From Conchocele bisecta (lineage: Eukaryota > Mollusca > Bivalvia > Lucinida > Thyasiridae): a stretch of DNA of 64,000 nt. Below are positions 806 through 55,743 of the stretch, one piece after another. A model generated the notes under the pieces. That model saw only the letters and a list, made by a program, of their open reading frames with translations. It was not told the DNA's origin and ran no database searches. Where the stretch lies: positions 42,091,331 through 42,155,330 of the forward strand of contig CM055265.1 in the NCBI GenBank assembly GCA_029237695.1, in the 5' to 3' direction. Position numbers and translations under genes: made by a program. Position 1 is the first letter of the stretch; every line of letters begins with the position of its first letter.

Positions 806-881
806 CCACAAGTTGTTGGAGATCATCCACAAAACCGATGAGGATTTTCTCAGAATCATGGAACTAGTGTCGTCGTTTAAC
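806..881 (+). CDS. Carboxypeptidase exon 1 in window: prodomain, first part
   Basis: Acceptor ATATCTTTTCAG and donor AAC|GTGAGT bound 76 bp. The first base completes a codon begun upstream; the rest reads HKLLEIIHKTDEDFLRIMEL then VSSFN. This matches the first helix of the M14 activation peptide. The exon ends on a codon boundary, matching exon 2. The preceding exon (signal peptide plus first prodomain strand) should lie left of position 1; 1-805 holds only MITEs and no plausible signal peptide. Confidence 0.85.
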
Positions 882-2279: not shown

Positions 2280-2416
2280 TTTGACGTCTGGAGTATGCCT
2301 AAATATGCCAACGACACAATGCACGTGCACGTTTTCCCGGGAGCCATGGAACAGTTCATAGCACAACTCAAGGAACTAGATGTCGATAACAAGATATTAA
2401 TAGAAAACATACAAAG
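2280..2416 (+). CDS. Carboxypeptidase exon 2: prodomain core
   Basis: Acceptor TGGTTTCAG, donor AG|GTATAT, 137 bp. It opens FDVWSMPKYANDTMHVHVFP and ends near LIENIQ(R/S). The D-W start, the HVHV-P strand and the closing I-E-(N/D)-(I/V)-Q are the standard M14 prodomain pattern. It ends two bases into a codon, which the first C of exon 3 completes as Ser. A 62-64 bp tandem duplication lies just upstream of the acceptor. Confidence 0.92.
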
Positions 2417-3020: not shown

Positions 3021-3147
3021 CCTACTGGAAGAACACGGGGCCCAGAAGCAGCCGCCCCGTCGCCGGGCCTTCAACAAGCGGACCCGTCCGGCCTCCATGC
3101 AGGGCGGCAGCGGGATGGAACTCAATGTTTACCACACACACGATTCC
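3021..3147 (+). CDS. Carboxypeptidase exon 3: basic activation linker and start of catalytic domain
   Basis: Acceptor CACTATCTAG, donor TCC|GTAAGT, 127 bp. It begins (S)LLEEHG, then a long basic linker with PPRRRAFNKRTRPAS, then LNVYHTHDS, the usual first strand of the mature enzyme. The linker is longer and more basic than in vertebrate CPA/CPB and offers several trypsin- or furin-like sites, so prodomain removal probably occurs here (inference). GC-rich compared with its surroundings. Confidence 0.9.
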
Positions 3148-3454: not shown

Positions 3455-3565
3455 ATACGGAATTTCCTGCAAGTCGTCTCCAGTGCCCACCTGCCCCATG
3501 GTGTGACGGCGACCATCGAGGATATTGGGACAACTTACGAACGCCGAAATGTCGAAGTCATAAAG
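3455..3565 (+). CDS. Carboxypeptidase exon 4: N-terminal catalytic domain
   Basis: Acceptor TTATATTCAG, donor AAG|GTATAA, 111 bp = 37 codons, phase 0 both ends. It reads IRNFLQVVSSAHLPHGVTAT then IEDIGTTYERRNVEVIK. The I-G-x-(T/S)-(Y/F)-E-x-R string is the typical M14 segment before the Zn-binding loop. A 4.6-kb intron with a nested 3.45-kb transposon follows. Confidence 0.93.
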
Positions 3566-4898: not shown

Positions 4899-6410
4899 AT
4901 GGAACAGTCGTACTCCGATGAAGTGCACTGCTCATCATCACCAAGCAAGCATAAAGAGGAAGGTAATAAGAGACGAAAGCTGAACAGTGACGATCGGCAG
5001 CGTATTGCCACAGAGCTAACAAGGCATTCCCATCCGTTGGAAGTCAAGAGTGACGTCCTCTACAGCATTGTCAATGGTCGGGTAGCTCACAAAGATGTAA
5101 ATGTGGAAAATGCACTAGTCATTGGAGCGAAAATGGCCACATCCTTCCGCAACTCTCTGCCGTTTCACTTCCATGCCAATATATACAGTCAAGTCAAGTC
5201 GATGGAGCAACTTAAGAGAGGCGTGAAGGTTGGTGGCAAAACTGTATTCGACCTAGAGGCCATCTTCATCCGTCTTTTGTTGGTCGGGCAACAACGACAG
5301 TTGCAACTGGAACCAATTTTCCAGTACGAGTTGTATGCTGTTCCACCTTCTATCATCGACGAGTATGGCTGCTTGAAGAAAGGAAACAAATATTCACTCG
5401 CCAATCATCTCGGTATACCACAACTTGGAGGTCCAGATCCGGACATCGTCATCGTGAATGCACAACAACTTTTCTTTCATATCGTCTGGCCACACGGATG
5501 AGTGGTATCCATCATCGTTGTGAGCATTAAGCGCCGCCTCTCGATTTACCCGACGTCCACCGAGAAGATGCCATCGTGATGCCATTCTAAAGAATAAGCA
5601 CAACAAGCGTGAACTCATCCGCGTGATATCCATACTCAATCTGTGTGATCACATATTCATATATTATCGGGATGACAGCAGCTTTGCACACGATGAGGCA
5701 AGCTTCCTAAATGGACATGGCTGTGGTCCGAATCCTCAGCGATGATACAGGTGTATTTGTGCTACTGGTCTGCTGGGTCTGGAAGCTGCAACTACTTTCT
5801 AGCTGTAGTGTCCAGATAGAACACTGGAATGGGGTGGTGATCGACATCAATGCGATATGTATACATATGGGATCTAAGTGTCTGCAGCTACTGGGCATGC
5901 ACCCGCTTAGCGGCTGTGACACTGTATAATACCCATTCAGCAAGGCGATGGTCAGTGCCTTGAATGCTCTGAAGGCTGGCGAATTTCCAGGATTGTTTGA
6001 TGTACTGGGTAAAGCAAACGCCACTAATGTTGCTCTCCTAGAAACAGGTAAGCGGTTACTCGCAGCTATGAATGGTTAGCAAACAGGAATCTCGATTGGT
6101 GCGGCACGCTACCATATATATGCTAAGAAGAAAGTGAAGCCAATGAGCATCATATCATGGCATTGCCTCCGACATCCTGCTTCACCACATGTTAGGAATG
6201 ATGATGTTGTGAAAGGCGGCTGATAAACAGAGGGTTGTAGCTGCCACAGACATCAGATGTCGTTACCATCTAGTGCGTGTGTACAGCTTGCGATTGGTGT
6301 TGCAATATGTGCACTATAAAAGAAGATGGGATACATGTAGGAGGTGTACATCAGATAGATGCCGATGCTGTGGCTGAGGATGTGGAGGATGTGGAGGAGC
6401 TGGAATAACG
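4899..6410 (+). pseudogene. Broken transposon-borne ORF with PIN/FEN1-like LSDDTxVFVLL motif
   Basis: An intact stretch of 200 codons runs from MEQSYSDEVHCSSSPSKHKE to FFHIVWPHG and then stops. It has a lysine/arginine-rich N terminus and DVNVENALVIGAKMATSFRN, KVGGKTVFDLEAIFIRLLLV and DEYGCLKKGNKYSL. Recognisable pieces continue after frame breaks: VVRILSDDTGVFVLLVCWVW (about 5717), KCLQLLGMHPLSGCDTV with a stop (5878-5928), then VSALNALKAGEFPGLFDVLG. I know similar proteins only as a multicopy, uncharacterised family in fish and mollusc genomes. Several stops and shifts make this a relic; it lies inside the long-TIR element, probably its cargo or core protein. Confidence 0.75.
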
Positions 6411-8176: not shown

Positions 8177-8287
8177 ATATCTATCCCGACGACGTCCGGC
8201 CATCGAAAACATGGTATCTTCATTGACGGGGGCATACACGCGCGGGAATGGATTGCCCCGGCCACCGTCCTATACGTCATAGAGCAG
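8177..8287 (+). CDS. Carboxypeptidase exon 5: HAREW zinc-binding motif
   Basis: Acceptor CCCGTTTCAG, donor CAG|GTACAG, 111 bp, phase 0. It reads [20 protein letters not shown] then [22 protein letters not shown] supplies two Zn ligands (His69, Glu72 in bovine CPA numbering) and the Arg71 equivalent; [14 protein letters not shown] is a family signature. Confidence 0.97.
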
Positions 8288-9845: not shown

Positions 9846-9950
9846 TTGGCATATAACCCTGACAACGACCCCGTCGTGACCTCTCTCTTGCACAAGTATG
9901 ACTTCTACCTGCTACCCGTGGTCAACCCGGATGGATACGAATACACAGAT
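9846..9950 (+). CDS. Carboxypeptidase exon 6: NPDGYEYT segment
   Basis: Acceptor GTATGTTACAG. It reads LAYNPDNDPVVTSLLHKYDF then YLLPVVNPDGYEYTD; VNPDGYEYT is a family signature. The donor is ambiguous: GAT|GTTGTA (used here) or GTT|GTAAAT three bases later, adding Val. Both keep frame into ERFWRKNR of exon 7. Either way the loop before RFWRK is one or two residues shorter than in vertebrate CPA/CPB. A family-B MITE starts about 35 bp downstream. Confidence 0.9.
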
Positions 9951-9984
9951 GTTGTAAATATGGCTATCTTTATCATCCACTTAC

Positions 9985-10982: not shown

Positions 10983-11037
10983 GAGCGGTTCTGGAGAAAG
11001 AAATGAGGCGAGGCATTTTTAAACACAGACACGGGCA
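10983..11037 (+). pseudogene. Relic duplicate of carboxypeptidase exon 7
   Basis: After an acceptor-like CTTCGGCAG the sequence GAGCGGTTCTGGAGAAAGAA differs from the start of true exon 7 (11332) at one base. It encodes ERFWRKK and then hits TGA. A weaker match (ACAGACACGGGCA) follows after a small insertion. No donor remains. Confidence 0.75.
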
Positions 11038-11331: not shown

Positions 11332-11425
11332 GAGCGATTCTGGAGAAAGAACCGGAACACCAACACGGGCAGTACGTGTGTCGGGGTGGACCTCAACCGC
11401 AACTTCCCCTTCCAGTGGGACCCAG
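11332..11425 (+). CDS. Carboxypeptidase exon 7: WRKNR and DLNRNF substrate residues
   Basis: Acceptor TGTTTCCGTAG, donor CAG|GTCAGT, 94 bp; the last G begins a codon completed in exon 8. It reads [20 protein letters not shown] then [11 protein letters not shown]. It carries the Arg127 equivalent and the Asn144/Arg145 carboxylate-binding pair, plus the first Cys of the conserved disulfide. Confidence 0.96.
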
Positions 11426-12219: not shown

Positions 12220-12434
12220 CCACCGGAGGCAGCGTAAACCCCTGCAACGACATCTACAGCGGTTCAGGCGCCGGCTCCGAACTGGAGACCCGGAACCTGG
12301 CCAACTACCTGCTCCGCCACACCCACACTGACTCCTCGTATATGGTGGCCTATCTCACCCTCCACTCGTACGGACAGATGTGGCTCTATCCGTGGGGGTA
12401 TACCAGTGATCTTCCTCATGATTGGCGCGATTTG
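12220..12434 (+). CDS. Carboxypeptidase exon 8: third Zn ligand and Tyr198 region
   Basis: Acceptor TTCATTCCTAG, donor TTG|GTAGGT, 215 bp (72 codons with the carried G). It contains GGSVNPCNDIYSGSGAGSEL with the second disulfide Cys, and YLTLHSYGQMWLYPWGYTSD with the third Zn ligand (His196) and Tyr198. It ends on a codon boundary, so it can join either exon 9 copy. Confidence 0.97.
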
Positions 12435-13534: not shown

Positions 13535-14130
13535 TTTGTTGGTGTTTTTCTAAGGTCATTTAAGGCCGGGCCAACGGGTTCGATCCCGTATTTAACCTGC
13601 TGCATTGGGGCGAAAATCACAAAATCAGAACGGAATATTTACATCGAAACAACATACATATTCAGCCCTGAAATTAGAATAGCCTGACCTGGTGTACCAC
13701 ACCAGTCACCTGGCCCCTTCCCCTAAAAGTAATAATAATATTACACTTAAAGGGGGTATAACCAGATTCAACTCTCACATACAAGAATGCCAATGACGTA
13801 CGTGAGGGCCAAACCAGGGGCCCGTTTCACTAAACTTTGTAGTACAAAGTTAGGATCATCTGGAAACTTCAATTGATGGATTTACATTTATTGAGCATAG
13901 GCTGCATATGCAGCATATGCTCAATAAATGTAAATTCATCAATTGTTTACAAAAAAAAGATTGTTAATTTGAAATGTACAGACTATCATAAGTTTGCACT
14001 TGCGAACATTTTAGTCGTACAAAGTTTAGTGAAACGGGCCCCAGGTCTCCGGTCGGGATTCCGATAAGGACGAATCCTTATCGTTAAATTACCCATCACA
14101 TGCTCCCAACCACCACCACCGCAAAAAGGT
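13535..14130 (+). mobile_element. SINE-G, split by family F MITE
   Basis: Runs from the AAGGTCATTTAAGGCCGGGC end to CATCACATGCTCCCAACCAC. Interrupted at AAACCAG by the MITE at 13817-14042. Confidence 0.75.
13817..14042. mobile_element. Family F palindromic MITE
   Basis: TIR GGGCCCGTTTCACTAAACTT; central TTTATTGAGCATAGGCTGCA hairpin. Possible 3-bp target duplication CAG in the host SINE. TIR resembles Harbinger-type elements (inference). Lies 5' of exon 9a. Confidence 0.88.
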
Positions 14131-14638: not shown

Positions 14639-14723
14639 CACAGCGCTGCAGAACATGGCATTAACACTATAAGAGCTGTGGGAGGTACACAATATGTGAT
14701 TGGCTCATCAACTCGCACCTTGT
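14639..14723 (+). CDS. Carboxypeptidase exon 9a: alternative copy of the S1' loop exon
   Basis: Acceptor TTTTCATCAG, donor T|GTAAGT, 85 bp = 28 codons plus the first T of Tyr248. It reads HSAAEHGINTIRAVGGTQYV then IGSSTRTL(Y). Length, phase, the G-T-x-Y-x-x-G-S core and final L(Y) match exon 9b (12/28 identical). No stop, both splice sites good. Because 85 is not a multiple of 3, using both copies would shift the frame. It lies between two palindromic family-F MITEs (13817-14042 and 14769-15006). Transcription is unproven; it could be a recent relic. Confidence 0.8.
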
Positions 14724-14768
14724 GTAAGTTTCCTTATATTTCCCAAAACTGCCATCTTTATCACCAGG

Positions 14769-15006
14769 GGGCCGTTTCACTAAACTTCGTACGACTAAAA
14801 TGTCGTAAGTGCAAATTTAGGATCGTCTGGAAATTTCAATTGATGGATTTACATTTATTGAGCATAGGCTGCATATGCAGCCTATGCTCAATAAAGGTAA
14901 ATCCAATAAGTGTTTACCAGAAAACATTGTTAATGTGAAATGAATAGACTATCATAAGTTTGCACTTACGAACAGTTTAGTCGTACAATGTTTAGTGAAA
15001 CGGCCT
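14769..15006. mobile_element. Family F palindromic MITE
   Basis: Complete copy with central hairpin, 45 bp after exon 9a. Confidence 0.88.
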
Positions 15007-15244
15007 CCAGCTGTTTTAACCCACTCACCCCGTGTAACTGGTATTGACTTTCCCATATCTAATCAATGTTCATGCTACATATATTCCATTAATAGCCAAA
15101 AGGTTTTTGTTTTTTTTGAAGAAAAAAATACAAACATTTAAAGGTCTGTAGTCTTAAAAAAAGCCTATGTTTAATGTATAAATCTGTTTTGGCGGCACTT
15201 CGGTATATCATTAACTAACTAACAAATGTTTGAACAAATAATTA

Positions 15245-15640
15245 ACCACTTAATACAATGCTGAATCAAATGTTGTCGTCAGCTGTATATTTTTTATTTT
15301 CCATTGTTCTCCTCAACATGGTTTAACAACACTTTTGAATGATTTCCAATGGAAATCATTCTAAAGTGCTGTTAAACCATGTTTCAGGGATTCCGCTGGG
15401 GAAAATAAAAAAATCGCCACTTCAAAAGAAAAAAAAAGAAAAAAATTTTTCTTTTGAAGTGGCGATTTGTTTTTCGAAAATTGTAATTTTTTATCGCCAA
15501 TTGTTTATTTTTATCGCCAATTGCGAAAGTGGCGATCGTCAGCGGAATCCCTGATGTTTTTATTGAGAAAGAAGACATAAAACAACAGCAGCGGACAAGT
15601 TTTGTTTCCCAACATTCTAAGGCGCAATACAAACAATAAA
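15245..15640. mobile_element. MITE family K with nested element
   Basis: ATGCTGAATCAAATGTTGTC end, central hairpin TTGAATGATTTCCAATGGAA; the right arm is interrupted at 15385. Confidence 0.75.
15385..15553. mobile_element. Short CAGGGATTCCGC TIR element with 6-bp duplication
   Basis: TIR CAGGGATTCCGCTGG / CAGCGGAATCCCTG, flanked on both sides by ATGTTT (15379-15384, 15554-15559). Interior repeats TTTTTATCGCCAATTG. Sister copy at 53057-53249. Confidence 0.88.
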
Positions 15641-15723
15641 AGGATTTGATTTATTGGTGTTTAACGGCCTAATCAGAAAACCGTTTTCCCTACATTGGAA
15701 GCGTTAGACCGCCAGCTCCCTCC

Positions 15724-16032
15724 AGTAGCCGATTTCACCAACATTGCAAAGTACACTTTTCTAGCAAAGTATACTTTGAGGGAGTACGATCATTTATTTT
15801 TCCTGAAATGCATTATTTCATATATAACTAACCACTGCATATATTTGATGATTAAAAGTATGCAGAATGATTATACTGAATTTATTATATTATCACAGCC
15901 AAAATGGCTGTGATAATGTAATAAATTCAGTATAATAAAAATTAATAAATTTATCCTTAAATTGAAAATTTCTCCCTCAAAGTATACTTTTCTAGATAAG
16001 TATTCTTTGCAATGTTGATGAAATCGGCTACT
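15724..16032. mobile_element. MITE family A, complete
   Basis: AGTAGCCGATTTCACCAACA ... GATGAAATCGGCTACT with inner AAAGTATACTTT pairs. Confidence 0.88.
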
Positions 16033-16189
16033 GCATGATCTGTGCAATGCTTTTCGTGTACAGGTGATGGTTGTATGTGGTCGTGTGAATTGGACAACAT
16101 AAACTCTCGAAGCCGGACAGCCTGGCGACCACATTGTGTTTAATTTACATGAGTTTCACTGTAATTTACTTCATTGTCGAATCTGTTAG

Positions 16190-16620
16190 TTTGTTGGTTG
16201 GGGTTTAACGGCCTATCAACAGTTAAGGTCATTTAAGGCCGGGTCAATGGGTTTAGTACTGAATCCCATATATTACCTGTACAAGTACATGTACATGTAC
16301 ATGTTCAAGTACAAATGGGGGGGAAATCCCAAAATCAAAAATGAATATTTACAATAAAAAAATATATATATTCAGCCCTGAAATCAGAATAATCCTGATC
16401 TGATGCCAGGTCCTCGCCACACCAGAATCCCTTGGCCCCTCCCAAAATTAGTAGGATCAGTAATAATCTTACTACTTTTATAATGGGCAATAACCAAATT
16501 CAACTCCCAGGTAACAAAAAAGTCAAAGATAAAAACGTACCTGAGGGCAAAACCAGGCAAATCGTGATTCCCATCAGGAAGAACCCCTTATCGAGCCTGT
16601 GCATGGTTTAAAATGACATA
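16190..16620 (+). mobile_element. SINE-G2 (ACATGTACATG variant)
   Basis: GGGGTTTAACGGCCTATCAA start, CCTGTACAAGTACATGTACA, GATCTGATGCCAGGTCCTCG, and AATCGTGATTCC-type end. Confidence 0.75.
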
Positions 16621-16645
16621 AATTATCCATCCATATACGGCTTAT

Positions 16646-17200
16646 AGTCCGTTTCACGAAAGCTGCCCAAATTTTACGGCCATATAAACAATTCAAAAAC
16701 AATTTTTTTTTGGATAATATTAAATTAAAGGAAAATTTAAGAATGAGCCTTCTTTTTATTTCGTGAAATTTGGTCAAATATTGATTTTATTACGAATAAT
16801 TGATTTCTCTATGGGAATTCAACATGGGCGGAAAAAGAGGTAGAGGAGTGTGGGAGGAGTCAAAAAACGAAAAAATTTGGAAATTAACTCCGAAACCTAT
16901 CTAGATAGCTTGGAAATGATCTAACTAAGAAAACAAAAGTTAAATTTTGAAAATCGGTCCAGAATTACTGAAATTCTAAAAAATTTCCGCATGTTAAATC
17001 CCCATAGACATCTTCACTGTCTATGGGGATTTAACATGGGGAAATTTTGTTTTCGCAATAAAATCAATATTTGACCAAATTTCACGAAATAAAAAGAAGG
17101 CTCATTCTTAAATTTTCCTTTAATTTAATATTATCAAAAAAAAATAGTTTTTGAATTGTTTATATGGCCGTAAAATTTGGGCAGGTTTCGTGAAACAGAC
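16646..17200. mobile_element. Palindromic MITE family D, complete
   Basis: GTCCGTTTCACGAAAGCTGC ... TTTCGTGAAACAGAC; centre TCTATGGGGATTTAACATGG facing its complement. A pogo/Tigger half-copy follows at 17208-17255. Confidence 0.88.
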
Positions 17201-17596
17201 AGTAATTACAGTGAAACCTCTCTAAACCAGACACCCTGGAGAGGGTCCACTGTATGACTTTCATTTATGTAATATGTTGAACCAAATTTCCACCGACACA
17301 CCCAGGATGAAGCGAATGACAATTTCACAACAAACAGAGTAGTAACTCTAGTAGAAACAAAATTTAGGCGATAACAAATATTACTTTGGTTCTCACATAT
17401 CGCCGCGTCTGAATAATCCCTGCGCGTCGAGCACTTTAATATCGTCGTGAAGAAATATAAGTGTACTATAAATTTGCCACATGATCAATAAAAAAACACT
17501 ACTGTACCATGCACAAATATGTTACATCCATTCATGTCTAGTTGTGATGGTGATGGGATATAGCTAGGTTGGATCGATGGACCTACTCATGTTATT

Positions 17597-18090
17597 ACTG
17601 TCTATTCCACGTTTTGCTGCCGATGAACTTTTGGCTATTAAACACATTAAATCTAAAAAATATTTAAAAGCAAGTACTTTTTTATCAATAACAAAAAAGT
17701 GACCCTCCCCAAAAAATATTATTTGATGAAATTCCATGAAATATTGATTTTATTGCCAAAAAAAAACGATTTTCCTATGGGAATTTAACATGGGGGCTAA
17801 AAATAGATTTTTTTGAAATATGTTTTTTATTTGTGGACCGATTTTCAAAATATAACTTTTGTTTTCTTAATTACATCATTTTCAAGCTATCTCGCCAGGT
17901 TTCGGAGTCAATTTCGAATTTTTTTTCGTTTTTTGATCCTGCAGGATCAAAAACGAAAAGTTTTGGAAATTGACTCCCATAGGAAAATCATTTTTCGCAA
18001 TAAAATCAATATTTGATGGGATTTCATCAAATACATTTTTTTGGGGAGGGTGACTTTTTTGTTATTGGTGAAAAAGTACTTTGTTTGCTA
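17597..18090. mobile_element. Palindromic MITE family E, 3' end truncated
   Basis: GTCTATTCCACGTTTTGCTG start; CGTTTTTTGATCCTGCAGGA centre; ends in GTGAAAAAGTACTTTG before its TIR. Confidence 0.8.
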
Positions 18091-18194
18091 TGGTTTAACG
18101 GCCTATCAACAGCTAAGGTCTTGTTGTGATTGTGGTGGGATACAGCTAGGTTGGACCGACCCATGGACCTACTCATGTTAGTAATTGTCAGGGT

Positions 18195-18590
18195 TCCAGA
18201 TAAGGAATTAGGAATTGAGTATTGTTACTCTTATCATTTCTGAAGCAATTGGGTATTTCAAAATTTAATTGGGTAAAATAAAATCACACTACTGTTTACA
18301 CATCAACAGACCGCAATTATTGAATAGTTTGCTTCGAAATGAAAACATGTCTTGGCATTTCATTAGAATTGTCTCCTTGGAGACAATTCTAATGAAATAC
18401 CAAGATGTGTTTTCATGGAAAATAAGAAAAATATGCTATATATGTGGTCTGTTTATTGTTTTCTGCAGCATGATAAAGGTACCACAAAATTTGTATTGCT
18501 TTTTGATACTCGCTACTTCGGATTTCAATTGGGTTTTTGGCAATTTTAATTGGGTATTTAAGCAAATACGCAGCTTATTTGGAGCACTGA
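18195..18590. mobile_element. MITE family C, next to exon 9b
   Basis: TTCCAGATAAGGAATTAGGA to GCAGCTTATTTGGAG with the GTCTCCTTGGAGAC hairpin; ends about 30 bp before the exon 9b acceptor. Confidence 0.85.
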
Positions 18591-18622
18591 ATTGTGATGG
18601 TGGTGGGATGCTTTGGTTGCAG

Positions 18623-18707
18623 GATAGCATAGCCCGCGTTGCCATATACCACATCAGGAAAGTGCACGGTACCCGGTATATCACAGGATCCGCTGAAAAT
18701 GTCCTCT
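18623..18707 (+). CDS. Carboxypeptidase exon 9b: S1' loop exon
   Basis: Acceptor TTTGGTTGCAG, donor CTCT|GTAAGT, 85 bp. It reads DSIARVAIYHIRKVHGTRYI then TGSAENVL, ending in the first base of Tyr248; joined to exon 10 it gives [16 protein letters not shown]. It corresponds to roughly residues 220-248 of bovine CPA, the helix and loop lining the S1' pocket. 9a and 9b differ at the 243-246 equivalents (S/A, T/E, R/N, T/V). A family-C MITE ends about 30 bp upstream and a family-E MITE begins 18 bp downstream. Confidence 0.92.
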
Positions 18708-18725
18708 GTAAGTATAGGTGACTAC

Positions 18726-19194
18726 TGTCTGTTCCACGTTTTGCTGCCGACGAACTTTTGGCTATTAAACATATTAAATCTAAAAAATATTTAAAAGTAA
18801 GTACTTTTTCATCAATAACAAAAAAAGTCACCTTCCACAAAAAAAATTATTTGATGAAATTCCATCCAATATTGATTTTATTGTGAAAAAAAAACGATTT
18901 TCCTATGGGAATTTAACATGGGGTCTAAAAAGAGATTTTTTTTAAAATATTTTTTTTATTTGTAGACCGATTTTCAAAATCTAACGTTTGTTTTCTTAGT
19001 TACATCATTTTCAAGCTATCTCGCAAGGTTTCGATGTCAATTTCCAAAATTTTAAAAGTTTTGGAAATTGACTCCATGTTAAATTCCCATACGAAAATCG
19101 GTTTTTTCGCAATACTTACTTTTAAATATTTTTTAGATTTAATCTGTTTAATGGCCAAATGTTCGTCGGCAGCAAAACGTGGAACAGACAGTAG
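18726..19194. mobile_element. Palindromic MITE family E, complete
   Basis: GTCTGTTCCACGTTTTGCTG faces AGCAAAACGTGGAACAGAC; starts 18 bp after the exon 9b donor. Confidence 0.88.
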
Positions 19195-19311
19195 TGTAGG
19201 GCACATGCACCTGCTATATTCATCCGCTTCGACAAAACTTTTGCTAAATATCTCGGTACATTGTAGCTATCAAAGTTTAAATTGTTAACAGCTACAGTCA
19301 TTTTAGATCAG

Positions 19312-22098: not shown

Positions 22099-22292
22099 AT
22101 TCTGCGGCAGGTGGGTCGGACGATTTTGCAAAAGGCTCAGCAGGTATAAAATACTCGTACACCATAGAGCTGCGGGATGAAGGGCGATACGGGTTCCTAT
22201 TGCCCACCAGCCAAATCCTGCCCACGGGCAAGGAAAACTGGGAAGGCATCAAGGCATTCGTAAATGAGATGACGAGTATAGAGGGATGGTAA
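22099..22292 (+). CDS. Carboxypeptidase exon 10: catalytic Glu and C terminus
   Basis: Acceptor TTTCCACAG. The first two bases complete Tyr248. It reads [40 protein letters not shown] and ends TSIEGW at TAA 22290-22292. [15 protein letters not shown] holds the catalytic Glu270 equivalent and GGSDDF the Asp255 equivalent. No extension past the normal M14A end. Possible ATTAAA poly(A) signals at 22359 and 22434. Confidence 0.97.
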
Positions 22293-33713: not shown

Positions 33714-34213
33714 NNNNNNNNNNNNNNNNNNNNNNNNNNNNNNNNNNNNNNNNNNNNNNNNNNNNNNNNNNNNNNNNNNNNNNNNNNNNNNNNNNNNNNN
33801 NNNNNNNNNNNNNNNNNNNNNNNNNNNNNNNNNNNNNNNNNNNNNNNNNNNNNNNNNNNNNNNNNNNNNNNNNNNNNNNNNNNNNNNNNNNNNNNNNNNN
33901 NNNNNNNNNNNNNNNNNNNNNNNNNNNNNNNNNNNNNNNNNNNNNNNNNNNNNNNNNNNNNNNNNNNNNNNNNNNNNNNNNNNNNNNNNNNNNNNNNNNN
34001 NNNNNNNNNNNNNNNNNNNNNNNNNNNNNNNNNNNNNNNNNNNNNNNNNNNNNNNNNNNNNNNNNNNNNNNNNNNNNNNNNNNNNNNNNNNNNNNNNNNN
34101 NNNNNNNNNNNNNNNNNNNNNNNNNNNNNNNNNNNNNNNNNNNNNNNNNNNNNNNNNNNNNNNNNNNNNNNNNNNNNNNNNNNNNNNNNNNNNNNNNNNN
34201 NNNNNNNNNNNNN
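33714..34213. other. Assembly gap, 500 N
   Basis: Exactly 500 N, a fixed-size placeholder between two different satellites. True length unknown. Confidence 1.
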
Positions 34214-45741: not shown

Positions 45742-48578
45742 CAAGAGTTGTCAGAAGACAACGAAGCTCGCCTGTTGGCAGCCTTCATTCAAACTTGTCA
45801 CAGTTGTATAAAAAACATGAATATTATATAATTTGACCTTGGGATAAGGGGTGTGCGGTGGACCTTGACAATGAGGTCAGTGGTGGATGGTGGATCGTGG
45901 ATTTGATATAGCATGATATAGCATATTAAGATGAATGCATGTATGAAATATCAATGCGCTCCCTGAAATGAGAAGGAAAACAAAATTTAACCTAGCGTTA
46001 AGTTTATGAACATTCACATGAGGAATGCATGTATAAATGTGCTAAGTTTGTGACCTTGGCCTTGGCAAAAGGGGTAGGGGAGGTGGGTTATGGATTTGCT
46101 GTAGCACAATAGAGTATTATCAGATGAATGCATGTATGAAATATGAAGGTGTTCCCTGTAAAGAAACAGAAGTTATAAAAAGACATTTATTCCAACGTTA
46201 AGTTTATGATGTTGATCTTGGGGAAAGGGGTGGGGTGGGTCATGGATTTGCTGTAGCACAATAGAGGATCATCGGATGAATGCATGTATGAAATATCAAA
46301 GCGTTCAAAGTGTAAAGAAACAGACATTACACAACATTTACCCCAATGTAAAGTTTATGAACATGCTAAGCTTGTGACCTTGACCTTGGGGAAAGGGTTG
46401 GGTGGTGGGTTGTGGATTTGCTACAGCATGATAGAGGGTCATCTGAGGAATGTATGTATGAAATATCAAGGCGTTCCATCAAAGGAAACAGTTGTTATCA
46501 GACATTTACCCCAACGTTAAGTTTATGAATGTGTCAAGTTTGTGACCTTGACCTTGGGGTAAGGGGTGGGCGGTGGGTCATGGAATTGCTATAGCACGAT
46601 AGAGTATCATCAGATGAATGCGTGTATGAAATATCAAGGCGTTCCATGAAAGGAAACAGATGTTATAAGACATTTACCCCAACGTTAAGTTTATGAATGT
46701 GCTAAGTTTGTGACCGTGACCTTGGGGAAAGGGGTGGGGGTTGGTCATGGATTTGCTATAGCATGATAGAGTAGCATCAGATGAATGCATGTATGAAATA
46801 TCAAGGTGTTCAAAGTGTAAAGAAACAGAAGTTACACAACATTTACCCCAACGTTAAGTTTATGAACATGCTATGTTTGTGACCTTGACTTTTGGGTAAG
46901 GGTTGGGTGGTGGGTTGTGGATTTGCTACAGCATGATAGAGGGTCATCTGAGGAATGTATGAAATAGCAACGCGTTCCATGAAAGGAAACAGACATTTAC
47001 CCCAACGTTAAGTTTATCAATGTACTAAGTTTGTGACCTTGACCTTGGGATAAGGGATGAGCGGTGGGTCATGGATTTGCTATAGCATGATAGAGTATCA
47101 TCAGATGAATGCATATTTGAAATATCAAGGCGTTCCATGAAAGGAAACAGATGTTATAATACATTTACCCCAACATTAAGTTTATGAATGTGCTAAGATT
47201 GTGACCTTGACCTTGGGGAAAGGGGTGGGCGGTGAGTCATGAATTTGCTATAGCACGATAGAGTATCAGCAGATGAATGCATGTATGAAATATGAAGGCG
47301 TTCCCTGTAAATAAACAGAAGTTACACAACATTTACCCCAACGTTAAGTTTATGAACATGCTAAGAGGTGACCTTGACCTTGGGGTAACGATTGGGTGGG
47401 TGGTGGGTCATGGATTTGCTATAGCACGATAGAGTATCATCAGATGAATGCATGTATGAAATATCAAGGCGTTCCATGAAAGGAAACAGATGTTATAAGA
47501 CATTTACCCAACGTTAAGATTATAAATGTGCTAAGTTTGTGACCTTGACCTTGCGGTAAGGGCTGGGTGGTGGGTCATGGATTTGCTACAGCATGATACA
47601 GGGTCATCTGAGAAATGCATGTATGAAATAACAAGGTGTTCCATGAAAGGAAACAGAAGTTATAAGACATTTACCCCAACGTTAAGTTTATGAATGTGCC
47701 AAGTTTGTGACCTTGACCTTGAGGTAAGGGCTGGGTGGTGGGTGATGGATTTGCTACAGCATGATAGAGGGTCATCTGAGGAATGCACGTATGAAATAAC
47801 AAGGTGTTCCATGTAAAGGAAACAGAAGTTTATAAGACATTTACCCAACGTTAAGTTTATGAATGTGCCAAGTGTGTGACCTTGACCTTGGGGTAAGGGC
47901 TGGGTGGTGGGTCATGGATTTACTACAGCATGATAGAGGGTCATCTGAGGAATGATGTATGAAATAACAAGGTGTTCCATGAAAGGAAACAGAAGTTATA
48001 AGACATTTACCCAACGTTAAGTTTATGAGTGTGCCAAGTTTGTGACCTTGACCTTGTGTAAGGGCTGGTGGTGGTCATGGATTTACTACAGCATGATAGA
48101 GGGTCATCTGAGGAATGCATGTATGAAATAACAAGGTGTTCCGTGAAAGGAAACAGAAAGTTATAAGACATTTACCCAACGTTAAGTTTATGAATGTGCC
48201 AAGTTTGTGACCTTGACCTTGGGGTAAGGGCTGGGTGGTGGGTCATGGATTTGCTACAGCATGATAGAGGGTCATCTGAGGAATGCATGTATGAAATAAC
48301 AAGGTGTTCCATGAAAGGAAACAGAAGTTATAAGACATTTACCCCAACGTTAAGTTTATGAATGTGCCAAGTTTGTGACCTTGACCTTGGGGTAAGGGCT
48401 GGGTCGTGGGTCATGGATTTGCTATAGCATGATAGAGGGTCATCTGAGGAATGCATGTATGAAATAACAAGGTGTTCCATGAAAGGAAACAGAAGTTATA
48501 AGACATTTACCCAACGTTAAGTTTATGAATGTGACAAGTTTGTGACCTTGACCTTGGGGTAAGGGCTGGGTAAAAATG
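45742..48578. mobile_element. Mobile 168-bp tandem array, about 16 units
   Basis: Begins CAAGAGTTGTCAGAAGACAA then CGAAGCTCGCCTG, identical in form to the element at 57278. Units repeat GTGACCTTGACCTTGGGG, CATGATAGAGGGTCATCTGA, CAAGGTGTTCCATGAAAGGA and CCCAACGTTAAGTTTATGAA about every 168 bp. The 3' end is lost. Confidence 0.85.
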
Positions 48579-49279: not shown

Positions 49280-49525
49280 GGGCCCATTTCACTAAACTTT
49301 GTACGACTAAAATGTTCGTAAGCGCAAATTTATGATCGTCTGGAAATTTCAATTGATGGATTTACATTTATTGAGCATGGGCTGCATATGCAGCCTATGC
49401 TCAATAAATGTAAATCCAACAATTGTTTTAAAACAAGAAATAAATGTTAATGTGATATTTACAGACTATCATACTTTTGCACTTACAAACATTTTAGTAG
49501 TACAAAGTTTAGTGAAGCGGCCCCC
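49280..49525. mobile_element. Family F MITE beside the RBCK1 RING2 exon
   Basis: GGGCCCATTTCACTAAACTT to AGTTTAGTGAAGCGGCCCCC; a pogo/Tigger half lies just left (49257-49279). Confidence 0.85.
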
Positions 49526-49554
49526 CGGTGTTGGAGAGGATTCAGTATACTTAC

Positions 49555-49653
49555 CAGTTCGCCCCATCTCGGACCCTTGGTGACCCAGCAGATTTCCGTC
49601 TTACAAATCGAGCACTGTATCCAGTCACAGCCCTCCTTCTTCATCACGATCAC
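49555..49653 (-). CDS. RBCK1: RBCK1 exon: RING2 with catalytic cysteine
   Basis: Minus-strand acceptor TGTTGTTGCCAG, donor CTG|GTAAGT, 99 bp, phase 0. It reads [20 protein letters not shown] then [19 protein letters not shown] is the RING2 core; the Cys in TEICW aligns with HOIL-1 Cys460. The rest (GGCRCRV...CHPxCxNCH in vertebrates) should lie in one more exon. A family-F MITE lies 29 bp past the donor, and a palindromic MITE about 95 bp upstream of the acceptor. Confidence 0.94.
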
Positions 49654-49746
49654 CTGGCAACAACAGAAATGTGGATCGATGACACAAACCTGCCGCTATG
49701 GCAACGTCATGGTAACAACAGCAAATATATAGCTCCCAGTCAACCA

Positions 49747-49937
49747 CAGAGCTCCAGTTAAGGTGCGTAATTTGAGCAACTTGAGGTGAAATTTTGTCAT
49801 TTCTTCATCAAAAATGGCAAGTTGGGAGTCCTTTAGGATCGTCTCATTGAGACGATTCTAAAGCACTCCCAACTTGCCATTTTTGATGGAGAAATAAGAA
49901 ATTTACCAAATTACGCACCTTAACTGGAGCTCTGAAC
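49747..49937. mobile_element. Palindromic MITE with AGGATCGTCTC centre
   Basis: TIR CAGAGCTCCAGTTAAGGTGC, then GGCAAGTTGGGAGT-CCTTTAGGATCGTCTCA facing its complement. Confidence 0.88.
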
Positions 49938-50009
49938 CAACATAGAGTAACCACAGCACAATAGGGCCACTGTGCTAACACCCTCATTAACAATGACAGA
50001 TTCATATAC

Positions 50010-50260
50010 GAGACAAGCCATGTGATTTTGTACCCGAGAAGATGTGCAATTTTTCATGAAAAACATTTACAGAAACTGTGATATTTTTTATAACACATGT
50101 CAAAGACTGACGAGAATTTCATAGCAATTACGGAATTCTATTTTGCAATTGCTCCGAAGATTTCGTCAACTTTTGACATTGGTTACGAAACATTTCAGCA
50201 ATTTTGTAAATATCTTTCATGAAATATTGCACATTTTCTTAAGTACAAAATCTAAGCGAC
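50010..50260. repeat. Family P inverted repeat
   Basis: CCATGTGATTTTGTACCCGA to CACATTTTCTTAAGTACAAA. Confidence 0.65.
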
Positions 50261-50336
50261 AACTACAGGATCTCACATGACATCAGTTCGTAGAGATTCC
50301 ACTATACATGTAATAAAGGTATATAATGTAATTCAG

Positions 50337-50570
50337 GGGCCCGTTTCACTAAACTTCGTACGACTAAAATGTTCGTAACCGCAAATTTAGGATTGTCTGG
50401 AAATTTCAATTGATGGATTTACATTTATTGAGCATAGGCTGCATATGCAGCCTATGCTCAATAAATGTAAATCAAATAATCGTTTACAAGAAAACGTTGT
50501 TAATGTGATATTTACAGACTTTTGCACTTACAAACATTTTAGTCGTACAAAGTTTAGTGAAACGGCCCCC
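50337..50570. mobile_element. Family F palindromic MITE
   Basis: GGGCCCGTTTCACTAAACTT to TTAGTGAAACGGCCCCC. Confidence 0.87.
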
Positions 50571-50769
50571 AGTAGTTTTGCAATCCGAATTATGTTCAAT
50601 GAGATCGAAATCGATCAATCAAAATCAGACAATCTGGGTTTGAAACTACAAAACTGGTTGAACATTTACATGTATAAAATAATTTGTTTTATAGGGGTAA
50701 TACTTAACTAAAATGTTGCTCCCATAAATGATGAGTTAAGAACTGAACGATGTTGTTTTCTGCTCATCA

Positions 50770-51095
50770 GTTTGTTTGTTTATTGGCGTTTAATGGCCTA
50801 TCAACAGCTACGGTCATTTTAGGCCGGGCAAACAGGATCAAAACAGGTTTGATCCCGTTTTAACCTGTTGCATTGGGGGAAAATCCCAAACTCAGAACAG
50901 AAAATTTATTCGAGAAAAAATATATTCAGCCCTGAAATTAGAATAACCTGACCTGGTGCCAGGTCAATACCACACCAAGTCATTTGGCCCCTTCCCCTAA
51001 AAGTAATAGGATTAGAAATAATCGTATTACTCGTACAAGGGAATCCCGATCATTAAATTACCCATCACATGCTCCCACCTGCCACCCACTTACGT
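50770..51095 (+). mobile_element. SINE-G
   Basis: TTATTGGCGTTTAATGGCCT to CCCATCACATGCTCCCACCT. Confidence 0.8.
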
Positions 51096-51159
51096 TCATT
51101 GGATTATGCACACCTATGGTCACATGACAAATTATATTGTTTATGTTTGCATGCTCCAG

Positions 51160-51530
51160 ATAAGGAATTAGAAATTGAGTATTGTCACTCCATCATTTCT
51201 GAAGCAATTGGGTATTTCAAAATTTTAATTGGGTAAAATAAAATCACACTGCTGTTTACATATCAGCAGACAGTAATTATTGAATAGTTTGCTTCTAAAT
51301 GAAAACATGTCTTGGCATTTCATTAGAATTCTAATGAAATACCAAGATTTGTTTTCATGGAAAAATAAGAAAAACATGCTATATTTGTGGTCTGTTTATT
51401 ATTTTCTGCAGCATGATAAAGGTAACAAAATTTTGTATTGCTTTTTGATACTCACTACTTCTGATTTCAATGGGGTTTTTGGCAATCTTAATTGGGTATT
51501 TAAGCAAATACGCAGCTTATCTGGAGCCCT
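51160..51530. mobile_element. MITE family C
   Basis: CTCCAGATAAGGAATTAGAA to GCAGCTTATCTGGAG; the central hairpin has lost its GTCTCC tip. Confidence 0.85.
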
Positions 51531-51832
51531 GTGTTTGTATCGGCCGCTACTTTAACACCATTAGCTGGAGCAATAACAATGAAATGTACATCGATAATAT
51601 AACAACTCAACACCATGTATTTTGCTTTCTTATAAAACAATGAATGACATGTTTTTGTTATAGCCCTTGTACAAAGTATGGTTTAACTGGAACAACAGAG
51701 TGAGCAGAGGCTCACTGATACCCCCGGCTGTGAACCGGCAAACAAAAACTCTATAATGAAAATTTAGAAATGTTCCAGACAATCAAATGGACAAATGGAC
51801 GGACGGATGACCGGACAGAAAGGCGAAAACTA

Positions 51833-51901
51833 CAGTGAAACCTCTCTAAACCGGACACCCTGGGAGGTCCCCAGGGTGTCCGGTTTAGTGATGTTCCAAT
51901 G
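51833..51901. mobile_element. Pogo/Tigger-like MITE
   Basis: CAGTGAAACCTCTCTAAACC hairpin; half copy at 52013-52038. Confidence 0.88.
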
Positions 51902-52082
51902 TAAATCAGACATATAACCATTCTGTGACATACTTATATATTTTGCAATCATGAACATGCATTATGATCTGAGATGCGTTACCAAGAAACCTCTCAAAAT
52001 ATTATCTCTGTGTCCGGTTTAGAGAGGTTCCACTGTATGGTGTACCTGTTGGTATACTTCATAAGCCATGGGTATATATTAT

Positions 52083-52243
52083 AGGAATGAATGGCCTTTT
52101 TGTGGAATTTATCGGGGTATAAACTTGGAAAAGTCGCGGGAATACTGGATGAAGGCCGGAAGGCCTCGTCCAGTATTCCTACGACTTTTCCAAGTTTATA
52201 TCCCCGATAAATTCAACAAAAATACCATTCATTCCTTATAATT
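52083..52243. mobile_element. Long near-perfect foldback MITE
   Basis: GGAATGAATGGCCTTTTTGT ... GGAATACTGGATGAAGGCC faces its complement through GGAATGAATGGTATTTTT. Confidence 0.9.
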
Positions 52244-52498
52244 CCAGCATTTGAAATAAATTCATCAAGAAAATGTGTCTATTTTCCGTTTTCTTAAGAA
52301 TTATTTTAACTGCGCCTGACGGTTACGGAAAGTAGTTCGGCATGGGAGTTTACTGGGATATAAATTTTGGACAGACTTGCTATGGACCAATCGAATGTTA
52401 GGGAATTGTGTAAATATTTTTGTGCTGGAATTATCTGTTGGTATACTTCATAAGCCATGGGTACATATATCGTGAAACATTCAGCAAGTAGCACATAC

Positions 52499-52822
52499 CC
52501 GACACTGTGGACAATTCATGGCGTCCCCATCATCCAACATCTTCTGGATCATTGACTGTGTCTGTCCGGCCGCCCGGTCATTCTGTGACCGGATCCTCAC
52601 GTCCTCCTGATACTGCATGCAGTTCATGCCCTGGTGTATCGCCTTGCACGTCAGGCAGTTCTCCTTTCGGCAGACTGGACAGACGAAGAAGTTGACGTGG
52701 TCCTCGTAGATGCACCAGCCAGCACAGTCGGCCGTCTTACAGTGGAAGCTATTGGCTGCTTGGCTTTCAGCAGTCTTTAGGCTTCGGGCAAGGTAACGGT
52801 CGTACATTTGCGCAGTGACAAG
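52499..52822 (-). CDS. RBCK1: RBCK1 exon: IBR domain and first RING2 cysteines
   Basis: Minus-strand acceptor TTGTATTATTACAG, donor CGG|GTATGT, 324 bp = 108 codons, phase 0. It begins LVTAQMYDRYLARSLKTAES and contains NSFHCKTADCAGWC, FFVCPVCRKENCLTCKAIHQ, MNCMQYQEDV and closes DAMNCPQCR. Zn-ligand spacing is a complete IBR. YQED and the QNDRAA-QT helix resemble HOIL-1 rather than parkin or ARIH. Confidence 0.96.
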
Positions 52823-53056
52823 CTGTAATAATACAAGATAAGCATAAATGAGACAGGCCATGTGATTTTGTACATCTGCGTAATTTCATTGCATACGTTT
52901 GCAAAATTTACAATACAATGTATATGTATTTTGTGTAAGGTAAGGAAACAGAAATTATAAGACATTTACCCGAACGTTAAGGTTTCGGGATGGACGGACA
53001 GACGGACGACGGAAACACTATATGCCCCCCTCACCATTTGGTGGCAGGGGCATAAT

Positions 53057-53249
53057 CAGGGATTCCGCTGGGAAAAAAAAGAAAAGAGGAATAACCAATA
53101 GGATAAAAATAAACAATTGGCGATAAAAAATTACAATTTTCTAAAAAAAAAAAGGATTTTTTATTTTTTTCGAAAATTGTAATTTTTTATCGCCAATTGT
53201 TTATTTTTATCGCCAATTGCGAAAGTGGCGATCGCCAGCGGAATCCCTG
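53057..53249. mobile_element. CAGGGATTCCGC TIR element with 6-bp duplication
   Basis: TIR CAGGGATTCCGCTGG / CCAGCGGAATCCCTG, CATAAT on both sides (53051-53056, 53250-53255). Confidence 0.9.
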
Positions 53250-53603
53250 CATAATGAATGTGGCTTATGGTTTCGGAGACAAAGGCATTTAAAAACTTTA
53301 ACACCGGTTTCCGACAGATGAAACATATACAAGAACATACGGACATCATTTATCCCATGTAACTCTACAAACCATAAAACCAACATTTGCAAACAGTGTA
53401 GATCCAGGTGAGCTCTCATCAGGGTCTACAGTACTTTTTCAGATGTTGAAAACTATATTTCTCACATGATTAATGAACTAGTCAAAATTTAGCATGAACT
53501 AGTCAATAAAAGAATAGAATAGTTTATTGCATCGAGGCAACTGCCTCATGAGCATACATACAGGACTATGGTATAATATACGTACAATGCAAGATAGAAG
53601 TCA

Positions 53604-53740
53604 TTTAGCCCTTTCAACACTTCAAACCTCTATAGCAGTATTTGCAAACAGTGTAGATCCAGATGAGCCGACTCGTAATGAGCCGGCTCGTAACAAGCCG
53701 TCTCATCAGGATCTGCACTTTTTGGTAGTAATCTTCATAT
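53604..53740. mobile_element. Family J fragment
   Basis: TTAGCCCTTTCAACAC start; GATGAGCCGACTCGTAATGA hairpin; the far end is missing. Confidence 0.7.
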
Positions 53741-53824
53741 TGTTTTTTTTTCAATGGACTGCATGTATATGTAATTTTAAAATGGTTTCATGACAACAGG
53801 CTTGGTTCGAAAATTAACATTATC

Positions 53825-54010
53825 CCTTAGACCGCTACACACAACAATTGTCATCTGCTATTGCTTTTATATCTTGCCTTATTTCTCAATAAAAACATGG
53901 TTTGACAGCACTTCAGAATCATTTCCAAAGCCAAAGGAAATGATTCTGATGTGCTGTCAAAGCATGTTGTAAATTATTCTAAAGTGCTGTCAAAGCATGT
54001 TTTTGATGAT
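53825..54010. mobile_element. MITE family K, rearranged
   Basis: AACATGGTTTGACAGCACTT centre; the GATTCTGATGTGCTGTCAAA arm is duplicated. Confidence 0.75.
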
Positions 54011-54159
54011 AACAAGATTTGTCAGTAAGCGAGGCTTACGGAATACCCACCACGTGTGGGCCCACGTGCCCTAAATATGTAAGGAAATAGAAGTTATAAC
54101 ATATTATGTGATGTTAAGTTTTGTAAAGAGACTAAGTATTTGACCTTGACCTTGGGATT

Positions 54160-54250
54160 AGCGGCGGTTGGGCGGTTCGGCGGTTGGGCGGTTGGGCGGT
54201 TGGGCGGTGGGTTGTCGTTTGGGGCGGTTGGGCGGTTGGGCGGTCCGTGT
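54160..54250. repeat. (GGTTGGGC)n minisatellite
   Basis: GGCGGTTGGGCGGTTGG units, G-rich on the + strand, G-quadruplex-capable; it is in an RBCK1 intron. Confidence 0.9.
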
Positions 54251-54282
54251 GGATTTGGCGCAGCATGGTAGGAGAGCCTTAA

Positions 54283-54354
54283 TAAATGCTCAATAAATGT
54301 AATTTATAGACGATCCTAAATTTTAGTCGTACAAAGTTTAGTGAAACGGCCCCC
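54283..54354. mobile_element. Family F MITE, right end only
   Basis: AATGCTCAATAAATGTAATT to AGTTTAGTGAAACGGCCCCC, ending 14 bp from the RBCK1 donor. Confidence 0.8.
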
Positions 54355-54368
54355 AAGTGTGTACATAC

Positions 54369-54480
54369 TGCCTTTATTTCGCGGTCCTGTAGCGTTCCAT
54401 TACAGGTATAGCTTTCGTCTTGATACGGGCACAGCAACACGGCATCCTCCGCGTATTCCACAGCGTAACTCAGGCATTTC
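54369..54480 (-). CDS. RBCK1: RBCK1 exon: end of RING1
   Basis: Minus-strand acceptor GTTCCACTGCAG, donor GCA|GTATGT, 112 bp. It reads KCLSYAVEYAEDAVLLCPYQ then DESYTCNGTLQDREIKA, matching the HOIL-1 RING1 end (CPF-DxxYxCxGxLxxREIKA). The exon is wedged between transposons: a SINE begins about 10 nt upstream of the acceptor and a family-F MITE about 14 nt past the donor. Confidence 0.93.
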
Positions 54481-54489
54481 CTGCAGTGG

Positions 54490-54745
54490 AACGTGAAAGG
54501 GTTTAACGTTCCAGCAACAGCTAAGGTCATATAGAGACGGGACTACTGTTTAAAGTCTCATCCGACAGACCAGTGGGATGGAAATACTATGAAAGTATTT
54601 TCGATACCCAATGTGAGGTTTGAACCCACAACCTCAGGATTCGAAGTCAGGTGTTCTAACCCCTAGGCCACAGCCCACCCCCGTAAAACGTGAAAGGGTT
54701 CAACACCCCAGCAACAGCCAAGGTCATATAAGGTCACATAGACGT
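54490..54745 (-). mobile_element. SINE H copy plus a truncated second copy
   Basis: Minus strand has GTGGCCTAGGGGTTAGAACA and GAGGTTGTGGGTTCAAACCT, ending AACGTTAAACCCTTTCACGT. A second 3' end starts at 54683. Confidence 0.8.
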
Positions 54746-54749
54746 GACC

Positions 54750-54905
54750 AGTTTATTAAATTTTCGACCACATGGTCGTTATAAAAATAGTGTGAAATGG
54801 GTTACAGCACGGTTTACTGCTACAATATGGACGTCACATAGGACTGCAAATACAGTTTCACACAATTTTGATAAAGACCATGTGGTCAAAAAATTCAATA
54901 AAAAG
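54750..54905. mobile_element. Foldback element
   Basis: TTTTCGACCACATGGTCGTT faces AAGACCATGTGGTCAAAAAA; GTGTGAAA / TTTCACAC inside. Confidence 0.75.
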
Positions 54906-55061
54906 AGTGACTTTAAAACATTTATAGCCCTTTATATGGTCCGTTACTGTGAAACCGCATGGTATCTCAAATCTTCACTATAACATTTCACTTTCTGGAT
55001 TGCCAATGGCTTATTTCTGATGGGAAAGATCATATGTGCTGTCAACAGCAGACAACATTAA

Positions 55062-55292
55062 CTCTTTGCATGCTGGGAAACTTGTGGGCTATAATTAGTT
55101 CAAAAATAGCAGACAATTCATTGTAATTTCTTTTATTTCTCCCTATAAATATCATGAATGTCTTGGAATTTCATTAGAATTGCGTCCAGAGGAAGCAATT
55201 CTAATGAAATTCCAATACATATTTACAGAAATAAATAAAAAATATACTCATAATTTGTTTGGCGGATATTTTCACCGCTAGCATGCAAAGAG
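55062..55292. mobile_element. TTAA-flanked hairpin MITE
   Basis: TTAA on both sides of CTCTTTGCATGCTGGG ... GCTAGCATGCAAAGAG; centre CATTAGAATTGCGTCC. Confidence 0.85.
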
Positions 55293-55438
55293 TTAAGTCA
55301 GCGCTATAAACTTTCCGACAGAACAAGCCTACAGAAACAGCAGAGGATAACATTTAATTCAGTGTTATAAAGTCACCAACAGAATTAGTGTAAAGAAATA
55401 GCAGACAATAATACATAAATTCAGCATGACAAACTTAC

Positions 55439-55620
55439 CGACAGAATACGTGTAAACATTCCCTGAGCATGACTCCGTCAGCAGCAGTAATGATGTCAAA
55501 GCAGATTGGGCAGGTGAAAGGTTCGGCGGTTGGGATGAGGTCACGAGCGTCTGTGTCCTGCAGTAACTCGTAATTCTTCTTTCGCTGCCGTTGTTCCTCT
55601 GCTACACGGATCTCCTCCGC
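55439..55620 (-). CDS. RBCK1: RBCK1 exon: coiled coil and first part of RING1
   Basis: Minus-strand acceptor CACATGACAG, donor CG|GTAAGT, 182 bp. It reads AEEIRVAEEQRQRKKNYELL (charged, coiled-coil-like), then TAEPFTCPICFDI and GVMLRECLHVFC. CPIC-x(n)-C-x-H-x-x-C are the first RING1 ligands. The last two bases (CG) plus G of the next exon give Arg, so FCR-KCL is rebuilt exactly. A degraded family-P repeat starts about 25 bp upstream of the acceptor. Confidence 0.94.
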
Positions 55621-55743
55621 CTGTCATGTGGGCATATAGAAACACGCCATGTGATTTTGTACCGATCTCATGAAAAACATTTACATACTAGTAATTTACG
55701 AAATTTCCAACATCATTTATAGAAAATATCAGTTTCTATAAAT

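Follow-up and report, generated by a model that had tools for sequence, protein, structure and literature searches.

A candidate pair of mutually exclusive exons in an M14A carboxypeptidase B-like gene of the deep-sea clam Conchocele bisecta

The DNA analysed here (the window) is a stretch of 64,000 nucleotides (nt) from the thyasirid clam Conchocele bisecta (assembly GCA_029237695.1, contig CM055265.1, positions 42,091,331 to 42,155,330). On its forward strand, read 5′ to 3′, it carries a gene for an M14A carboxypeptidase B-like enzyme, a digestive-type protease of this deep-sea clam, in which two exons, 9a and 9b, occupy the same slot between exon 8 and exon 10 (Table 1). Exons are numbered from the start of the window, as in the original prediction made from this DNA. 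The two isoforms, a and b, are both open to the stop codon in exon 10 and each count 418 amino acids within the window. Both match PF00246 (Peptidase_M14; 315.8 and 317.1 bits) and PF02244 (Propep_M14; 43.8 bits in each), well above cut-off, and both can be aligned over almost their whole length with procarboxypeptidases A2, A4 and B (1aye, 2boa, 1kwm). Placed by this alignment, the catalytic residues His69, Glu72, Asn144, Arg145, His196, Tyr248 and Glu270 (customary numbering) are all present. Asp255, the acidic B-type residue, is encoded by the constant exon 10. Upstream of the window, the best by hydropathy of four candidate start exons encodes MKLVCHCLYLVVMVMLSHGLPQDTRRYD and ends two bases into a Gly codon, a phase that matches exon 1. 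It is the likely signal-peptide exon, so the gene would have one exon more than was originally counted. The only run of N in the window (33714-34213) lies outside the gene. Separately, the intron between exons 4 and 5 holds a 200-amino-acid open reading frame at 4899-5501, possibly left over from a mobile or captured gene.

Exons 9a and 9b are both 85 nt long and open, with cag before and gtaagt after, and both are entered in phase 0 and left one base into the Tyr248 codon, with its T. Their peptides, HSAAEHGINTIRAVGGTQYVIGSSTRTL (9a) and DSIARVAIYHIRKVHGTRYITGSAENVL (9b), each followed by that T, agree at 12 of 28 residues, and the exons themselves at 39 of 85 bases. A tblastn search of the window with the whole protein found a single exon 8 and a single exon 10 flanking the two. 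On coordinates and lengths, shared slot, open frame, consensus splice sites, phase and number of matching residues, our reading agrees with the original prediction, and its statement that using both exons or neither breaks the frame is borne out as well. A length of 85 nt does not divide by three, so double inclusion stops at the junction, where T meets GATAG and gives two stops (TGA TAG), and double skipping runs out of frame, reaching a stop after 16 codons of exon 10. From the junction stops to the last exon junction the distance is 83 nt, which makes the double-exon transcript a likely target of nonsense-mediated decay. The proposal of an exclusive pair is well supported by the anatomy: the frame admits only one exon, the flanks are shared, length and phase are equal, and both copies have been under long-term constraint. 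Mechanical exclusion through a short intron or a U2/U12 mismatch is one known route to exclusive exons, not an obligatory one, and steric or U2/U12 exclusion is unsupported here, as 3899 nt separate the exons and AG precedes and GT follows both. With this spacing and these borders there is no apparent mechanical obstacle to joining the two, and exclusivity would come about through the frame, through regulation, through decay of the double-exon message, or through pairing of repeats.

The family resemblance of both exons is well beyond chance. The relatives used for comparison are 120 proteins listed among 6626 protein matches, and an exon-9 profile was built from 114 of them, leaving out the six that are gapped in the exon-9 columns. 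On this profile 9a scores 45.0 bits and 9b 42.0 bits, against in-sample scores for the 114 relatives with a minimum of 26.8, a median of 46.1 and a 95th percentile of 56.6. No third exon-9-like stretch was found in the window plus 10 kb upstream, on both strands and with stops allowed, the next best scoring 8.2 bits; the window has 94 open AG-85-GT stretches, the pair included, and the third best of them scores -10. Against the 114 relatives each exon has a mean BLOSUM62 score of 43.5, with 59 relatives nearer to 9a, 52 nearer to 9b and the remainder tied. An identity of 12/28 is itself ordinary between family members (median 9, 75th percentile 12). Against 1aye, the best PDB relative, isoform b scores slightly higher than isoform a (263 versus 257 bits), which is the kind of result expected if 9a were an unused copy and isoform b the sole product. 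We consider that very improbable, as 9a retains the GSST-x-x-L-Y motif of the family and has the better acceptor, with 13 pyrimidines in 20 positions.

One could also imagine that 9a or 9b is what is left of a second, tandem carboxypeptidase gene whose other exons have been lost, or the product of a collapsed assembly. M14 genes do lie in clusters in this 1.89 Gb assembly, two Mercenaria relatives are listed with contigs of identical length, and a relic of exon 7 shows that pieces of the gene have been copied. However, that broken relic is the only other copied piece found, neither exon 8 nor exon 10 has a second copy in the window, and there is no sequence gap within the gene. Nor did the tblastn search of the window find a separate terminal exon for 9a, the outcome named in the original prediction as contrary to it. 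The DNA around 9a and the DNA around 9b each have at least one match in the assembly, the only one found being the window itself, and no haplotype copy or duplicate contig was found there by a search of a kind that can miss copies. Together these results leave the tandem-gene explanation with very little probability. A six-frame genome search with the context of 9b gave seven matches, with E values as high as 10; 9a was not among them, which shows that the search lacks the power to count exon copies. PacBio CLR reads underlie the assembly (PMC9993606), so small errors are possible; both exons are intact nonetheless.

Related genes elsewhere in the genome keep exon 9 in a single version. Four M14A paralogues, three on the + strand and one on the - strand, lie at C1:68655001-68715000 (L012-L017). 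In all four genes of this cluster (C1:68.655-68.715 Mb) exon 9 is present in one copy, 85 bp long and with unchanged phases, and a fifth stretch over threshold (7.9 bits) is without splice sites in place. Among the other M14 places, the scan covered 40 kb within L018-L021 together with L001 and L002, where nothing scored above 6 bits. The paralogues at C1:68.66 Mb are disfavoured as a source of 9b, being about equally far from both exons (7-11 of 28 residues shared with 9a, 8-11 with 9b).

The two copies are old, and both bear the marks of selection. Of their 12 shared residues, four use the same codon and eight use different codons, and third positions are alike at only 8 of 28 codons. The proportion of differences is 0.83 at silent sites (pS; 21 sites) versus 0.45 at non-silent sites (pN). 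Because silent sites are saturated, no ratio of the pN/pS type can be given, and for the same reason neither copy can have been neutral for long. In simulations of neutral decay started from the present-day sequences, none of 3000 replicates per exon was still open, spliced and fitting the family at 0.5 substitutions per site; at 0.3 substitutions per site about 14 of 3000 (0.0047) survived for 9a and about 8 of 3000 (0.0027) for 9b. As survival is confined to low levels of decay, neither copy can have stood idle during most of the period that followed the duplication, and both were kept by selection over most of it. The relic of exon 7, alike at 87% over 31 nt yet broken, shows within the same gene what a copy comes to look like once it is dead, unlike the intact 9a and 9b. 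Rates do not rank either exon as ancestral: compared with the rest of the protein, over 38 rows of the alignment taken as bivalve (several without names), mean residuals are -0.061 for 9a and -0.052 for 9b.

The positions reported to shape the specificity pocket are 203, 207, 243, 247, 253, 268 and above all 255 in the available part of one source (PMC9925722), and an acidic Asp255 is described as the B-type residue in that of another (PMC6937156). Only 243 and 247 of these fall in exon 9. Residue 247 is Leu in both exons, and residue 243, small in both, is Ser in 9a and Ala in 9b, residues that occur there in 81 and 6 of the 120 relatives, respectively. Residue 244 is Thr in 9a (74 of 120) and Glu in 9b (0 of 120), and neither Glu244 nor Ala243 occurs in the 38 bivalve rows. 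Residues 243-246 thus read S-T-R-T in 9a and A-E-N-V in 9b, the same residues as originally reported, and residues before the loop differ as well. To call the pair a swap of the S1′ loop was nevertheless an overstatement: position 243 does differ, but 247 is shared and 255 lies outside the exon. Since Asp255 sits in the constant exon 10, both forms are expected to be of B type, acting on Lys or Arg. Judged from the sequence, both should cut after basic residues and differ in their loop or surface. A full substrate switch through replacement of the S1′ pocket is disfavoured, since positions 255 and 247 do not vary and 243 alternates between Ser and Ala; altered loop dynamics, binding of inhibitors or partners, or fine substrate preference are likelier than a change of class. 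The originally suggested change of substrate between two variants of one gene is thus possible but not favoured, with both forms predicted to be B-type.

Taken together, the anatomy, frame, family fit and long-term constraint of 9a and 9b make it likely that they are genuine mutually exclusive alternative exons of this M14A carboxypeptidase B-like gene, and from these we infer that both are used, exclusively of one another in RNA and with a functional consequence. Several observations weigh against this interpretation. First, the acceptor of 9b has 9 pyrimidines in 20 positions, the poorest of 11 in the gene (the others have 10-15), the exon sits inside inverted transposon-like repeats, and the canonical GSST-x-x-L-Y motif kept in 9a is broken in it. 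Second, after 0.1 substitutions per site 27% of the simulated copies of 9a and 20% of those of 9b would still pass as intact, which leaves room for a recent death of one exon. Third, both exons are somewhat less bivalve-like, and to the same degree, than expected from the remainder of the protein, with 5 of the 38 rows lying lower. Additionally, the species' own product is absent from the protein matches listed, a search with the 9b region came back empty (only two candidates passed the word filter, and the search was without a control), and no 9b-like exon is known elsewhere. The top protein match stands at 58% (Mercenaria, among the matches listed). So low a value fits the split of C. bisecta from other heterodont clams some 465 million years ago, as dated in the available part of the genome report (PMC9993606).

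The weak acceptor and the surrounding transposon-like repeats make a recent loss of 9b the main rival explanation. By this account, 9b was once used and has lately been silenced by transposon insertions, leaving isoform a as the sole present product of the gene. A dispersed repeat stops 33 nt short of 9b and another starts 14 nt after it, and two inverted pairs with loops below 1.5 kb enclose the exon, at least one such pair enclosing 4.1% of 5000 random sites; the rarity of its Glu244 and Ala243 (0 and 6 of 120 relatives) points the same way. On the other hand, the frame, splice dinucleotides and family fit of 9b are all intact, its donor scores like that of 9a, and the acceptor of exon 4 (3455) is nearly as poor, at 10/20. 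We regard the silencing of 9b as unlikely, and continue to favour a pair of exclusive exons in use.

The repeats may favour the skipping of 9b or else take part in its regulation. The available part of the genome report describes a genome of 1.9 Gb in 17 linkage groups, 67% of it transposons (PMC9993606). Inverted pairs are common here: 87 were found by the BLAST test, and each element can also fold on itself. The same test (loop below 1.5 kb) found no inverted pair around 9a, but a separate repeat listing does contain one, 13870-13945 with 14837-14912, with 891 nt between the arms. Looping by transposon pairs as the switch between exons is only an idea, with a pair listed around 9a too, self-folding elements and pairs so common.

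Table 1. Exons of the carboxypeptidase gene and associated elements, in window coordinates
Feature	Position	Strand	Remarks
Likely signal-peptide exon	-380 to -295		Predicted; ~0.3 kb 5′ of window start
Exon 1	806..881	+	Start of propeptide; signal-peptide exon candidate precedes, outside window
Exon 2	2280..2416	+	Propeptide; PF02244
Exon 3	3021..3147	+	
Exon 4	3455..3565	+	
Exon 5	8177..8287	+	Zinc-binding HAREW (His69, Glu72)
Exon 6	9846..9953	+	NPDGYEY
Decayed duplicate of exon 7, 5′ part	10983..11036	+	Acceptor included; in-frame stop, insertions
Exon 7	11332..11425	+	Asn144-Arg145
Exon 8	12220..12434	+	Zinc ligand His196; phase 0 at end
Exon 9a, alternative	14639..14723	+	GSSTRTL before Tyr248, canonical motif
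Palindromic transposon-like repeat 5′ of 9b	17596..18086	+	Can pair with repeat 18721..19195
Exon 9b, alternative	18623..18707	+	GSAENVL before Tyr248, derived motif with Glu244
Palindromic transposon-like repeat 3′ of 9b	18721..19195	+	Begins 14 nt after last base of 9b
Exon 10, last exon	22099..22292	+	Completes Tyr248; Asp255, Glu270; stop 22290-22292

Further along the window, exon pieces of a RING/IBR-type ubiquitin ligase lie on the - strand at 49483-55623 (CPICFD...CLHVFCR), including a cysteine-rich piece at 52481-52885; the gene may resemble RBCK1/HOIL-1. Long arrays of a similar 168-bp tandem repeat stand on either side of it, at 46032-48571 and 57778-58890. Elsewhere in the assembly, contig C400 (L022) carries an oxidase subunit that is open in the bacterial code and perhaps belongs to the gill symbiont, and contig C998 (L025) carries a COX1 of mitochondrial type that bears long insertions and has a protist look; small contigs of the assembly may thus include other organisms. 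A COX1-like stretch on contig C848 (L024) has many stops under table 11. The mitochondrial COX1 on contig C385 matches a Thyasiridae record at 100% identity over 91% of the query, with Thyasira tokunagai at 94%.

The likely history of the pair begins with an old exon duplication, which would have produced two interchangeable 85-bp cassettes covering residues about 220-248, as far as the foot of the Tyr248 loop. Exon 8 would be spliced to one cassette and that cassette to exon 10, so that each transcript carries one exon, and the products would be two B-type enzymes with different Tyr248-loop sequences and different residues ahead of the loop. A fuller version, which we put forward only tentatively and think rather doubtful as a whole, has two working B-type enzymes (9a canonical, 9b with Glu244), chosen according to tissue or symbiosis, perhaps with the aid of competing RNA pairings between the transposon-derived repeats around 9b, and differing in fine specificity or response to inhibitors.

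Alternative products are known from another M14 gene, Drosophila silver (carboxypeptidase D). Silver is an M14B gene in which alternative first exons and ends change whole domains, rather than an internal duplicated exon. The nearest functional parallel is coq-2 of nematodes, annelids and molluscs, whose duplicated internal exons 6a and 6e are an exclusive pair that exchanges part of the enzyme core and, in the available part of the source, decides the substrate (PMC7434440). The coq-2 case has RNA and genetic evidence across phyla, whereas the clam pair belongs to a different enzyme and is read from the DNA of one genome (PMC7434440, same part). The thioester proteins BgTEP2 and CfTEP are, like the product of the clam gene, secreted mollusc proteins with tandem interchangeable exons for one variable region; as far as the accessible text goes, they have 12 and 6 such exons in an immune bait-like region, seen in transcripts, in contrast to two in a protease catalytic domain (PMC7016707). 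Within the same enzyme family, the Xenopus CPO paralogues vary in the pocket, position 243 included, but do so by whole-gene duplication, and their Phe243 narrows the modelled pocket, where the clam has exon choice between Ser and Ala (PMC9925722, in the part available). Exclusive exon pairs are themselves known elsewhere. In the literature searched (titles and abstract openings, with few subscription journals) we met no description of one in M14, as the original prediction had supposed, and on that coverage 9a and 9b are the first candidate pair of this kind in the family.

If both exons are used, the M14 family would diversify by exon choice at the substrate flap, beyond gene duplication. 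The clam would then hold a natural pair of enzymes differing in 16 residues, with which the contribution of the Tyr248 loop beyond the pocket floor at position 255 could be tested cleanly, in a host animal that is chemosymbiotic and has a reduced gut.

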